From the NCBI GenBank assembly GCA_902826455.1, contig CADEEV010000004.1:1-64000 (forward strand): 64,000 nt of DNA, read 5' to 3'. The first letter of the stretch is position 1, and the number at the start of each line of letters is the position of its first letter. The notes beneath the pieces were generated by a model. The model saw only the letters and a list, made by a program, of their open reading frames with translations. It was not told where the DNA came from and ran no database searches. The position numbers and the translations under genes were made by a program. This DNA is from an uncultured Acidobacteriota bacterium. Lineage in GTDB: Bacteria; Acidobacteriota; Vicinamibacteria; Fen-336. Shown piece by piece: positions 1,887 through 14,782 of the stretch.

Positions 1887-3407
1887 CTAGTCCACCACCG
1901 CAAACACCCGTGCCGGTCCTCCACTGCCACCCGCCAGATTGATCGGTGCCACGACGACGGTGAACCCGCGCGCCGAGAGCCCGACGAGGTGCGCGGCGTT
2001 CTCGATGTGGTAGACGTTCAGGCCGAGGCTGACCTGGTGCGCCTCGAACTCGGTCGACGGGCCGAAGTCGATGCTCGGACTGTCGATGCCGATCGCCGCC
2101 ACCTTCCGGTCGCGGGACAGGTAGGCGTCGGCCTCGGCCGACAGGCCCGGATAGTGCTTCACGCCCTTAGTCTCGCCGAGCCAGCGCGCGCGGTCGGGCC
2201 AGCGGGTGTCCCAGCCCGTGGCGATCAGGACGATCGTGCCTTCCTCGATCGGGCCGTTCGCCTTCTCCCAGGCCTGGATGTCGGCCACCGTCACCTGATA
2301 GTCGACGTTCGTCTCGACCTGCTTCTCGACGTTGATGCAGACGCCGGGGCGGTGGAAGCGGTCCACCGGGATCTGGTCGACGGTCCAGCCGTTCGCGGCG
2401 AAGTGCGACGGGGCGTCGACGTGGGTGCCGAAGTGCTCGAGCGCCGAGAACTTGCCTTCGGCGTAGCCGTCCTTCGCCACCGTCGCGAGGTCCGTGCGCT
2501 GATAGCCCGGAGGACCGTTCCAGCTCGGGTCGCCGGGACGGAGCGGATGGCCGAGGTCGAACACCTTGGAAGTCTTGGCCGTGAGGAAGGCCTCGATGCG
2601 GTCGGCGACCAGGGCGGCGCCCTTGCTGTTGAGGTGGATGCCGTCGCTCAGGAGCTGGTAGCCGTTGCCCTGGCCGATCGCGTCGTAGCTGCGGCCGAGC
2701 AGGTAGTGCTTCAGCATCGACTTCGCGATCAGGGACGACGCCGGCTGCGTCGGATGAGGCGACGGTGTCTTCTCCAGGACCTCGGCCATCGACTCGTACA
2801 GTGGCAGGTAGGTCAGGCCTTCCGCTCCGGCGACCTCGCGGATCACCTCGTTGTAGTCGCGGACGTGGGCGTTCTCGACGCTCGCGAGGTCCTCCCCCAT
2901 CACGGGCAACGACAGGATCGCGAGCCGCGGCTGGGCGTCGGTGCGCAGGCGCTTGACGATGCGCACCAGGTTCTCGCGGTAGAACTCGCGCGTGGGCAGG
3001 ACCGGCAGCTTCTTGAGGCGCTGGTAGGACGCGGCGGCTTCGGGGCTCAAGGACGCGTTCACGTCGTTGGTGCCGATCTGCAAGACCACGATGTCGGGCC
3101 TGAGCGCGACAACGGGGTCGAGGCGCTCGGCGAGGTTGTAGGCGAGATCGCCGTTGCGGCCGGCGTTCGCGAACTGGAACCTGGAGCCCAGCTGCTGTTC
3201 CAGGAGTTCCACGTAGCTCTGGCTCATGCTGCCGCGGGTGACGCTCGCTCCGGCTAGGACCACGAGCGCTTTCGAGGGTTCACGGACGAGGCGCTCGGGC
3301 GCGGTCGGGGGCAGGCTCTGGATCCGGTAGCCCATGTAGCCGGCGGCGCAGGCGACCAGCACCACGAAGACGACGGCCGCGCGCAGGATCCGACGCGGGA
3401 GGCTCAT
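1887..3407 (-). CDS. SGNH hydrolase fused to a cyclase/kynurenine-formamidase-like domain
   Basis: A 506-residue protein whose ATG (3405-3407) overlaps the stop of the upstream flavin monooxygenase gene by 4 bp, so translation is probably coupled. An N-terminal membrane anchor or signal (residues ~8-28) is followed by an SGNH/GDSL esterase domain (~40-280): GAS nucleophile block, NAGRNGD, QIGTNDVN and the catalytic DGIHLNSKG. From ~residue 288 a second domain begins with DLGHPLRPGD and contains HFGTHVDAPSH, the metal-binding HxGTHxDxPxH signature of the PF04199 cyclase family, which includes kynurenine formamidase. Both domains look complete, so a two-activity enzyme acting outside the cytoplasmic membrane is likely. 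The substrate is unknown. No stop or frame change lies between the domains, so the fusion is not an artefact of merging two frames. Confidence 0.85.
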   Translation of the reverse strand: MSLPRRILRAAVVFVVLVACAAGYMGYRIQSLPPTAPERLVREPSKALVVLAGASVTRGSMSQSYVELLEQQLGSRFQFANAGRNGDLAYNLAERLDPVVALRPDIVVLQIGTNDVNASLSPEAAASYQRLKKLPVLPTREFYRENLVRIVKRLRTDAQPRLAILSLPVMGEDLASVENAHVRDYNEVIREVAGAEGLTYLPLYESMAEVLEKTPSPHPTQPASSLIAKSMLKHYLLGRSYDAIGQGNGYQLLSDGIHLNSKGAALVADRIEAFLTAKTSKVFDLGHPLRPGDPSWNGPPGYQRTDLATVAKDGYAEGKFSALEHFGTHVDAPSHFAANGWTVDQIPVDRFHRPGVCINVEKQVETNVDYQVTVADIQAWEKANGPIEEGTIVLIATGWDTRWPDRARWLGETKGVKHYPGLSAEADAYLSRDRKVAAIGIDSPSIDFGPSTEFEAHQVSLGLNVYHIENAAHLVGLSARGFTVVVAPINLAGGSGGPARVFAVVD

Positions 3408-4474
3408 GTGAAGTGCGGCATCACGTCCTCGGCGAAGGTGCGCAAGGACTCGAGGACGATCTCCTGGGGCACGGTGCCGAGCTGCATCACGAGGATCAGC
3501 TCGTCGACGCCGGCAGCCTGGTAGCGGGACACGGTCTCGCGGGCCGACGTGGGATCGCCGTTGATCGCCACGAGCTGGGAGCCCGGACGGTTGCGGGCGG
3601 CCATGGCTTCTTCGAGGGCGCGCGGGCTGAAGCGCTCGCGCGAGATGTCCAGCGGACCCACGGGCCTTTGGCCCCCGAAGAAGTACGTGCCGAGGCACTC
3701 GGCGAAGAAGCGGCCGCCGCGGAAACCGTACTCGCAGGCCTTGCGGTCGTCCTTGAGCACGATCGCCGTCGGCGTGCAGGCGAAGTGGTTGTTGACGCGC
3801 TTGCCGGCCGCACCGGCGCCCGCGAGGGCGTCGCGGTAGGTCTTCACGCGCTCCACGAGCTCCACGTCCGTGCCGGCCGAGAAGTGCAGCGAGCCGGCGC
3901 CCAGGCTCCCGGCGAGCGCCGCGCTCTGGTTGTGGGAGCAGGCCACGAACATCGGCGGGTGCGGCTTCTGGACCGGCTTCGGCACGATCGCCGTGGGCGG
4001 GATCTTGTAGAAGCGGCCCTTCCACTCGAAGACGTCCGAGCGCCACATGCGCGGGATCATCTCGAGGGCCTCGAGCCACTGGTCGTGGAGCGTCTCCGGG
4101 TCGATCTCGAAGGCCTCCTTCTCGACCCGCGAGGCGCTCTTGCCCGAGCCCCAGTTCACGCGGCCCTCGGAAAGGATGTCGAGGGTCGCGACGCGCTCGG
4201 CCACCCGGATCGGGTGGTTGTAGCGCTGGGCCGTCAGGCTGACGCCGTGGCCGATCCGGATCCGCTTGGTCTTCGCCGCGGCGAAGGCGAGCAGCGTCTC
4301 CGGGGCCGACGAGTGCGAGAACTCGAACAGGCCGTGGTGCTCGGTCGCCCACACCGCGTGGTAGCCGAGCTGGTCGGCGAGGACCACCTGCTCGATGCAC
4401 TCGAAGAACATCCGGCGCTCGGTCTCGGGCGTCGGTTCGGAGATCTGGGCCTCCAGCAGGATCGAGAATTTCAA
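3404..4474 (-). CDS. LLM-class flavin-dependent oxidoreductase (luciferase-like monooxygenase)
   Basis: A 356-residue TIM-barrel monooxygenase of the bacterial luciferase family, normally using reduced FMN or F420 and oxygen. The sequence shows the usual features: an N-terminal strand KFSILLEAQ, then WATEHHGLFEF, the RIRIGHGV strand and the VATLDILSEGR block with G-rich NWGSGKS. The start is a TTG (4472-4474); the nearest upstream ATG in the same frame is followed at once by a stop codon, so TTG is the best choice. No clear Shine-Dalgarno precedes it. It heads a two-gene unit with the SGNH-cyclase fusion and is divergent from the phospholipase-PKS operon, with 94 bp between. It might oxidise a lipid or polyketide from that operon, but only the position suggests this. 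Confidence 0.88.
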   Translation of the reverse strand: MKFSILLEAQISEPTPETERRMFFECIEQVVLADQLGYHAVWATEHHGLFEFSHSSAPETLLAFAAAKTKRIRIGHGVSLTAQRYNHPIRVAERVATLDILSEGRVNWGSGKSASRVEKEAFEIDPETLHDQWLEALEMIPRMWRSDVFEWKGRFYKIPPTAIVPKPVQKPHPPMFVACSHNQSAALAGSLGAGSLHFSAGTDVELVERVKTYRDALAGAGAAGKRVNNHFACTPTAIVLKDDRKACEYGFRGGRFFAECLGTYFFGGQRPVGPLDISRERFSPRALEEAMAARNRPGSQLVAINGDPTSARETVSRYQAAGVDELILVMQLGTVPQEIVLESLRTFAEDVMPHFT

Positions 4475-4568: not shown

Positions 4569-6401
4569 GTGCGTCCGGACCGTGACGTCATCCGCACTCG
4601 CGCCCTCGCCCAGGTCCCGCTCTTCAAGGGCCTGGAGCTCGAGGTGCTGTCGGTGCTGGACAAGGAGTGCGAGCACGTCAGCCTCGCGGGCGGCGCCGAC
4701 CTGTTCCGCCAGGGCGACGCCGGCGACGCGCTCTACGTCGTGCTGAGCGGCCGCCTCGAGGTGGTGAGCGAGCCCGCGGCCGGCGAGCGCGTGGTCGTGG
4801 GCGAGCTCACGCGCGGGGCCTGCGTCGGCGAGATGTCGTTGCTCACGGGCGCGCGGCGCTCGGCCAGCGTCCGGGCCATCCGCGACTGCGAGCTGCTGCG
4901 CATCGAGAACAGCCGCTTCGCGGGCTTCCTCGGCACCCACCCCCAGGTGGGCGCCGCCCTCGCCCGCACCCTGGCGGAGCGGCTGGCCGACACCACGGCC
5001 GCGGTCTCCGAGGCGCGCCGCGAGCGCGTCGCGACGATCGCCGTGGTGCCGCTGCTGGGCGAAGAGCTGCCGCCCACGTTCGTGCCCACGCTGATGGAGT
5101 GCTTCGCGCGCCTCGGGCACCCGGCCCAGCGCCTCAACCGCCACATCCTCGACGAGCGGCTGTGGAAGGGCGCGAGCGACATCGCGATGGGCGACCCGGC
5201 CGGCGAGGCCGTCGTGCAGTGGCTGGCCGAGCAGGAAGAGGCCGCTGAATACCTCATCTATGAGGGCGACTCGCGCGACGACGCCTGGGTCGAGCGCTGC
5301 CTGAGGCAGGCCGACCACATCCTGTTCGTGGCCCGGGCCCGGGTCGAGCCCGGCCGCGTCGACGACCGCTGGGCGCGCCTCGGCGCCGCGTCGTCCGACT
5401 CCGTGGGCAAGGAGCTCGTCCTGCTCCACGACGGCGCCGACGTCCCGCGGGGCTCGGCGGGATGGCGCACCGGCACGGCCCTCAGCGGTCTGCACCACGT
5501 CCGGCCGGCGCGGCGCCAGGACTACGAGCGCCTGGTGCGGCTGGTCACCGGCCGGGCGATCGGCCTCGTCCTGAGCGGCGGCGGGGCCCGCGGCTTCTCC
5601 CACATCGGCGTGGTGCGGGCCATGCAGGAGCTCGGCGTCCCCATCGATCGCGTCGGCGGCACCAGCATGGGCTCGATCGTCGCGGCGCAGATCGCCATGG
5701 AGTGGACGCCCGAGGAGATGGTCGAGCGCAACCTGGCGGGCTTCCGCGGCATGATCGGGCTGCGCGCCCTGAGCGACGCGACGCTGCCCTTCGTCTCGCT
5801 GCTCAGCTCCCGCGCCACGGTCAAGATGCTGCGCAACATGTTCGACGAGCGGGACATCTCGGACCTGTGGCTCCCCTACTTCTGCGTCTCGGCCAACCTG
5901 AGCCGCGCCCAGGCCGTGGTCCACGACACGGGGCCGCTGTGGTTCTGGGTCAAGACGAGCTGCGCGGTGCCGGGCATCCAGGCCCCGACCTTCCACGGCG
6001 GCGACGTCTACGTGGACGGCGGCTTGCTCAACAACCTTCCGGCCGACGTGATGCGCGAGCGCAACGCCGGCCCCGTGGTGGCCGTCGACGTGAACCCGCC
6101 CCTGGAGTTCGCGGCGCCGCCCGAGCCGCAGGCGACGCTGTCCGGGCACTCCGCCTTGTTCAGCCGCTTCCGGAAGGCCGAGGCGGGCCTGGCCCTGCCC
6201 AGCATCTTCTCGCTGCTGTCGCGCTCCGTGGGCCTCAACAGCATTCACAACCGGAAGCGGATCAGCGAGTACGCGAGCCTGTCCCTGTATCCGCCCCTGC
6301 AGGAGATCGAGCCGTTCAACTGGGGCGCCGCCCGAGACGCCGCCGAGCGCGGCTACCGTCACGCTCTTCCCCTCGTCGCCGCCTGGCAGGCGGCGCAGTG
6401 A
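4569..6401 (+). CDS. Cyclic-nucleotide-binding patatin-like phospholipase (neuropathy-target-esterase type)
   Basis: A 610-residue protein. Residues ~15-135 form a cyclic-nucleotide-binding beta-roll (LFRQGDAGDALYVV, VGEMSLLTGARRSASVRA). The patatin domain follows at ~330-510, with oxyanion block SGGGARGF (~336), nucleophile GTSMG (Ser366) and the catalytic DGG (Asp483). All three patatin signatures are intact, so an active Ser-Asp phospholipase or lysophospholipase is expected. This matches NTE/YlbK-like esterases, where the cNMP domain may gate activity. The start is GTG at 4569, with GGGAGG about 10 nt upstream. The gene ends 17 bp before the PKS start codon, so the two are almost certainly co-transcribed. 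Deacylating phospholipids would make the lyso-lipid that the PKS C-terminal acyltransferase could use; this is inference from context. Confidence 0.9.
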   Translation: MRPDRDVIRTRALAQVPLFKGLELEVLSVLDKECEHVSLAGGADLFRQGDAGDALYVVLSGRLEVVSEPAAGERVVVGELTRGACVGEMSLLTGARRSASVRAIRDCELLRIENSRFAGFLGTHPQVGAALARTLAERLADTTAAVSEARRERVATIAVVPLLGEELPPTFVPTLMECFARLGHPAQRLNRHILDERLWKGASDIAMGDPAGEAVVQWLAEQEEAAEYLIYEGDSRDDAWVERCLRQADHILFVARARVEPGRVDDRWARLGAASSDSVGKELVLLHDGADVPRGSAGWRTGTALSGLHHVRPARRQDYERLVRLVTGRAIGLVLSGGGARGFSHIGVVRAMQELGVPIDRVGGTSMGSIVAAQIAMEWTPEEMVERNLAGFRGMIGLRALSDATLPFVSLLSSRATVKMLRNMFDERDISDLWLPYFCVSANLSRAQAVVHDTGPLWFWVKTSCAVPGIQAPTFHGGDVYVDGGLLNNLPADVMRERNAGPVVAVDVNPPLEFAAPPEPQATLSGHSALFSRFRKAEAGLALPSIFSLLSRSVGLNSIHNRKRISEYASLSLYPPLQEIEPFNWGAARDAAERGYRHALPLVAAWQAAQ

Positions 6402-6418
6402 CGACGCGCGGAGGAGAC

Positions 6419-14778
<8,360 letters not shown>

Positions 14779-14782
<4 letters not shown>

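Follow-up and report, generated by a model that had tools for sequence, protein, structure and literature searches.

HxGTHxDxPxH is the motif of the PF04199 cyclases (accessible part of PMC5341072). In KynB, the residues represented by His50, His54, Asp56, His60, His161 and Glu173 of BaKynB are conserved in nearly all sequences (excerpt of PMC4243253), and isatin hydrolases carry the signature GLQC or GLAS at a place where KynB has a Glu (accessible text of PMC6117287). Both enzymes have their fold, as judged by Foldseek, and their metal ligands in common with the cyclase half of the protein described here, whereas that half is fused to another domain and is probably exported. Another PF04199 protein, with a changed motif, has metal-dependent carboxylesterase activity (same part of PMC5341072), and a C-C hydrolase is 25% identical to isatin hydrolase (accessible passages of PMC10470551). 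The cyclase fold gives no reading of the type of reaction. Among solved structures, the one nearest to the cyclase half by sequence, and also its top Foldseek match, is an entry titled Cyclase-Phosphotriesterase from Ruegeria pomeroyi DSS-3 (PDB 8f9x; E 1.9e-41), on which no paper was found in the literature. It is a single cyclase domain of 230 residues, to which the protein described here adds an SGNH hydrolase domain. The SGNH and PF04199 folds are each well known, but their combination is new, with one example found, and among the matches listed in the literature no published SGNH-PF04199 fusion was found.

This example is located in the window, i.e., the whole 64,000-nucleotide stretch of DNA that was analyzed, which comes from an uncultured Acidobacteriota bacterium. 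The SGNH hydrolase-cyclase fusion gene occupies positions 1887-3407 on the minus strand and encodes 506 amino acids from ATG to stop, the stop codon being included in these coordinates. No internal stop codon was found in the translation of 1887-3407 on this strand; the chance of 506 stop-free codons arising from base composition only is about 3e-5. A scan of GC3 minus GC2 across the junction (residues 200-360) gave positive values in the frame of the fusion alone. Using hmmscan, an SGNH/GDSL hydrolase domain (PF13472) was identified at 2616-3251 on the minus strand (residues 53-264; E 5.9e-22, 79.5 bits against a gathering cut-off of 32.9), and the core of a PF04199 cyclase domain at 2067-2561 on the same strand (residues 283-447; E 3.9e-40, 137.8 bits against a gathering cut-off of 23.1). 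The sequence-only reading had described two domains that keep their catalytic motifs in a single frame and had proposed a domain-architecture search as a check. Its description was borne out: the frame is continuous over 506 codons, PF13472 and then PF04199 lie in one protein as complete domains of two unrelated hydrolases, with both scores above the gathering cut-offs, and DGIHLNSKG (beginning at residue 255) and HFGTHVDAPSH (from residue 325) are both present. Two further features, a hydrophobic N-terminus and an overlap of four bases with the upstream gene, were absent from that reading. A longer open frame of 1491 amino acids on the same strand, extending up to position 6362, covers other genes and was regarded as GC-rich read-through.

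In the cyclase half, HFGTHVDAPSH matches the PF04199 motif, and likeness to cyclase relatives continues beyond the Pfam core to residues 505-506. The spacing of His325, His329, Asp331, His335, His457 and Glu469 is identical to that of the six KynB metal or catalytic residues, as these are numbered in the excerpt cited above. Because of this shared spacing, together with a Glu (in HIEN) where KynB has its Glu, the cyclase site is KynB-like in its predicted residues. Two enzyme names were considered for this half and rejected. As a KynB, it scored 45.8 bits against a cut-off of 223.05 for the NCBIfam equivalog TIGR03035; as an isatin hydrolase, it has HIEN at residues 467-470 and neither GLQC nor GLAS, the signatures given in the accessible text on that enzyme. 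The site would be expected to bind one or two divalent metals and to hydrolyze an amide, lactam, lactone or ester.

SGNH hydrolases are defined by sequence blocks that contain the catalytic Ser, a Gly, an Asn, and Asp-x-x-His. All of these residues were found in the fusion (Ser55, Gly86, Asn114, and Asp255/His258), and they are invariant across the fusion and three stand-alone SGNH relatives (L098-L100) in alignment A1. With Ser55-His258-Asp255 as its site and Gly86/Asn114 as its oxyanion hole, this half would cleave an ester or thioester. The three aligned relatives come from Streptomyces plasmids and Nonomuraea, and three others (L101, L135, and L136) from another class of the same phylum; the identity of these proteins to the SGNH half is 34-38%. 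All six are stand-alone SGNH proteins without a cyclase, whereas the fusion carries one. Two further matches to the SGNH half, both weak, were detected in 193 genomes of the window's class at E 1e-6, a few more partial ones at E 1e-3 in 60 relatives, and two weak loci when viral contigs were searched with the SGNH alignment. An AlphaFold2 model of the fusion, built from nine sequences, was of low quality in the SGNH half (mean pLDDT 64.3, pTM 0.48 overall), and is too weak for the relative placement of the two predicted domains. Foldseek matches to SGNH structures start at rank 33 and rest on the low-confidence part of this model.

Proteins that are signal-anchored and lipoproteins have a basic N-terminus followed by a hydrophobic stretch, and lipoproteins additionally have a lipobox with a Cys. 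The fusion begins with a hydrophobic segment at 3330-3395 on the minus strand (residues 5-26), a putative signal anchor or lipoprotein signal. The top hydropathy of the entire protein is reached here (2.27 over 19 residues from residue 7), and residues 5-26 form a helix in the low-confidence AlphaFold2 model. LVAC at residues 17-20, with Cys20, is lipobox-like and would fit a lipoprotein signal. This N-terminus would serve for both export and anchoring, and the protein is probably an exported one that stays attached to the cell envelope. By eye, a hydrophobic N-terminus is also present in the Nonomuraea relative L100 and in L136, whereas L098 and L099 have no such anchor. In a crude hydropathy test of 80 cyclase loci, a hydrophobic stretch was observed ahead of the cyclase domain in 69, and by this measure most of them look exported. 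The remaining 11 include the second cyclase of the window's genome (L002) and two cytochrome-cyclase fusions, whose signal lies further upstream.

The junction between the two domains (2562-2582 on the minus strand, residues 276-282) contains no linker domain and no signal peptide. The single in-frame start codon within residues 261-300 is a GTG at residue 282, inside the conserved start of the cyclase. On the SGNH side, the proteins L098, L099, and L100 stop at the alignment column of fusion residue 280 or one residue later, while L135 ends approximately two residues beyond its last match at residue 275, L136 approximately five beyond its match at residue 280, and L101 approximately 12 beyond residue 275. 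The ends of the six stand-alone relatives hence correspond to fusion residues of about 277-287, at the join or a few residues past it. On the cyclase side, the four nearest stand-alone cyclases (L059, L060, L061, and L062), which belong to the same class, are 53-58% identical to the cyclase domain of the fusion and have the same motif. They are single-domain proteins by Pfam with lengths of 244-251 residues, values that depend on the start codons picked in this analysis. These cyclases have a signal-like N-terminus of their own and no SGNH domain, whereas the fusion has its SGNH domain at that position. Their signal-like N-terminus stops immediately ahead of the residues found after the join in the fusion: a stand-alone cyclase continues after the signal-like stretch with, for example, LAQRVVDLGHPL, and the fusion has LTAKTSKVFDLGHPL at the same place. 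Since the SGNH relatives end at the join and the signal-like stretch of the cyclases stops there as well, the SGNH half, which brings a hydrophobic N-terminus itself, seems to stand in for the signal peptide of the cyclase. In terms of origin, an SGNH gene with its own anchor would have been fused to the sequence for the mature portion of an exported cyclase, replacing the signal peptide of the latter.

The same borders bear on whether an assembly or sequencing error has joined two separate genes, the outcome that the sequence-only reading had named as its refutation. The gene sits 1.9 kb from the contig end, the helicase gene lying between them (36-1799) has a frame change near that end, and the fusion is present in one assembly, with no second genome showing it in the genome sets searched (for the 396 genomes of the phylum, among the matches listed). 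However, a lost stop codon or a small indel would have left the signal peptide of the cyclase at the join, and none is there, which makes an assembly error unlikely; the cyclase has neither its own ATG start nor a signal peptide at this point, and no single base error gives that. A mis-join would moreover have to keep both strand and frame and to meet both domain borders, and GC3 is alike in the two halves (0.94 and 0.91). We therefore regard an artefact of this kind as very unlikely. On the sequence evidence, the SGNH-cyclase fusion is real, and the boundary between its halves is unusually clean.

The fusion had been called unusual, and the searches agree with this: it was rare in the genomes, plasmids, and phages searched, the window's genome giving the one example found. 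Apart from that genome, no match spanning both halves was found in 60 relatives, in 193 genomes of its class, among the matches listed for 396 genomes of its phylum, in 290 genomes of the class of G444, or in 162 genomes of the class of G495; these sets overlap, those of 60, 193, and 396 genomes contain the window's genome, and a diverged SGNH half could escape detection in such searches. Of seven loci in close relatives, five matched the cyclase half, two the SGNH half, and none both. Among the records with a match, coverage of 80% of the fusion query was reached by 0 of 315 from plasmids and 0 of 3 from phages. The SGNH half was also sought in 85 cyclase loci (two of which are the same place), drawn from a subset of the genomes that match the cyclase half, and was found in none of them. 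Several matches that resembled fusions were discarded. A Streptomyces match (H1), reaching residue 312, runs past the end of the gene concerned; H14 and H33, starting from residues 206 and 215, are annotated cyclase genes that start within the match; and in G193, G620, and G676, where the match starts at residue 221, 230, or 236, respectively, the surrounding 5 kb gave no hit for the SGNH half. Since the whole genomes sampled were from this phylum, the fusion may occur elsewhere, beyond those genomes. With regard to the cyclase half, matches at E 1e-30 were obtained in 70 of the 193 class genomes, including the window's own. A tree built from 78 cyclase domains (loci L002, L029, L030, and L107 were left out) places this half in a clade of five with four stand-alone cyclases, with a support of 100/100. 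These partners belong to the window's class but to other families, and the cyclases of its own family, five of which were in the tree, are placed elsewhere.

A parallel to the fusion was observed in two genomes of one other family, where a cytochrome domain is found ahead of the cyclase. The open frames concerned (L080 in G201 and L104 in G495) are 388 and 390 amino acids long and have a c-type cytochrome domain with CxxCH in front of PF04199, the cytochrome domain being confirmed by Pfam for L080 only. No cytochrome domain was found at the loci read in G425 and G902, which belong to the same family. As in the fusion, an extra domain precedes the cyclase, but here it is a c-type cytochrome and not a hydrolase. 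A redox partner on a cyclase was unexpected.

Because the join lies at the position of the signal peptide in the nearest relatives, selection need have kept nothing except export. The SGNH part could then be an export signal, anchor, or scaffold for a cyclase that works alone, or the reverse, with no pathway linking the two domains. The cytochrome domains of L080 and L104, which have no obvious enzymatic link to the cyclase, are consistent with such an arrangement, as is the finding of no second SGNH-cyclase case in the genomes searched (for the 396 genomes of the phylum, among the matches listed). This explanation is a serious rival, more so given the cytochrome fusions. Nevertheless, the catalytic residues of the SGNH half are kept, which would be needless for a mere anchor, and we consider the explanation a real possibility, albeit a somewhat unlikely one.

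The reading that we favor, and judge to be probable, is that the fusion is real and gives a single polypeptide that is exported, anchored in the envelope, and active at two hydrolase sites, as predicted from the conserved residues of each domain. The cyclase domain would oligomerize like its solved relatives and so display two or more SGNH domains. We can only guess that one kind of external substrate is trimmed at both sites, at its ester and its amide or lactone groups, and it is likewise a guess that the two serve one pathway, whose steps the sequence-only reading had suggested they might join, or act in sequence on one substrate. It is a tentative and rather doubtful proposal that this protein is the first natural SGNH-PF04199 bifunctional enzyme, anchored in the envelope, whose esterase removes an acyl group and whose metallo-hydrolase opens the amide, lactam, or lactone thereby exposed. 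If it were true, then, together with the cytochrome fusions, exported cyclases of this phylum would have gained partners that replace the signal peptide more than once, and the partner domains could reveal the substrate of these cyclases. No assignment of a substrate for this exported group was found among the literature matches listed, as far as their accessible text extends. Clues to function such as a fusion partner are rare, and this one offers a single polypeptide for assays; should both sites act on the same substrate, the fusion would give a first lead on what the exported cyclase group as a whole does.

Directly upstream of the fusion, a luciferase-like (LLM) flavin monooxygenase gene is located at 3404-4474 on the minus strand (PF00296; Pfam was run on 3404-4462). 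Its stop codon overlaps the start codon of the fusion by four bases (ATGA), and this overlap suggests that the two genes may be translationally coupled. By eye, no export signal is visible on the monooxygenase, so that a coupled partner would work in another compartment, the cytoplasm, and its location counts against a simple three-step path with the fusion. No match to the monooxygenase was detected in the other class genomes at E 1e-40 or beside the stand-alone SGNH genes of L101, L135, and L136, and two plasmid relatives that were inspected lie in different contexts. In the neighborhoods of stand-alone cyclases, no SGNH gene was found in ten regions, and an SGNH gene was paired with a cyclase in 0 of 85 loci.

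On the plus strand, a polyketide synthase (PKS) gene is present at 6419-14782, with KS, AT, DH, methyltransferase, ER-like, KR, and ACP domains and a terminal PlsC-type acyltransferase (PF01553). It adjoins a cyclic-nucleotide-binding patatin gene, and its product may be a methyl-branched lipid. Genes for FAD and GMC oxidoreductases are also near the fusion. The earlier remark that the fusion is divergent from the PKS unit is correct as to orientation: the patatin and PKS genes point one way and the fusion and monooxygenase genes the other, with 94 bases between the two sets, measured from the chosen start codons. The short gap and the adjoining PKS with its C-terminal acyltransferase, patatin, and FAD and GMC oxidoreductases would suit a polyketide or lipid cluster in which the fusion acts on the product of the divergent PKS, either tailoring or degrading it. 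By contrast, genome G152 has a patatin-PKS pair (37% and 45% identity) with no monooxygenase, SGNH, or cyclase match in 20 kb, and cyclase, SGNH, and PKS matches fall in different sets of class genomes. As the G152 pair stands without the genes of the fusion side, the fusion is provisionally treated as separate from the PKS and patatin, on the strength of this one comparison, and we judge its membership in such a cluster to be very improbable.

Some minor observations were made on the surrounding genes. The helicase at 36-1799 on the minus strand, a Schlafen group 3-type protein (PF09848) whose gene is broken by a frame change close to the end of the contig, has a GC content of 0.59-0.60, compared with 0.71 from 15 kb on, and fits local codon use poorly; it is either foreign or a badly read contig end. 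In two of the ten regions around stand-alone cyclases, families similar to those flanking the fusion were seen: a weak match to the monooxygenase (29%, E 2e-12) approximately 5 kb from the cyclase L067 in G137, and one of the cyclic-nucleotide-binding kind (37% over 134 residues) directly after the cyclase L068 in G152. Both would speak against separating the fusion from its neighbors, but we ascribe them to chance or to common families. Amidohydrolase-like and MFS transporter-like genes (Pfam, for L059 alone) occur near L059 in G058 and L060 in G121, which are among the nearest stand-alone cyclases, and hint that an amide-like compound may be taken up and hydrolyzed. In addition, a genome of candidate division WOR-3 contains tandem cyclase-like stretches, apparently in one frame, at positions 6025-6711 and 6805-7473 of L034.
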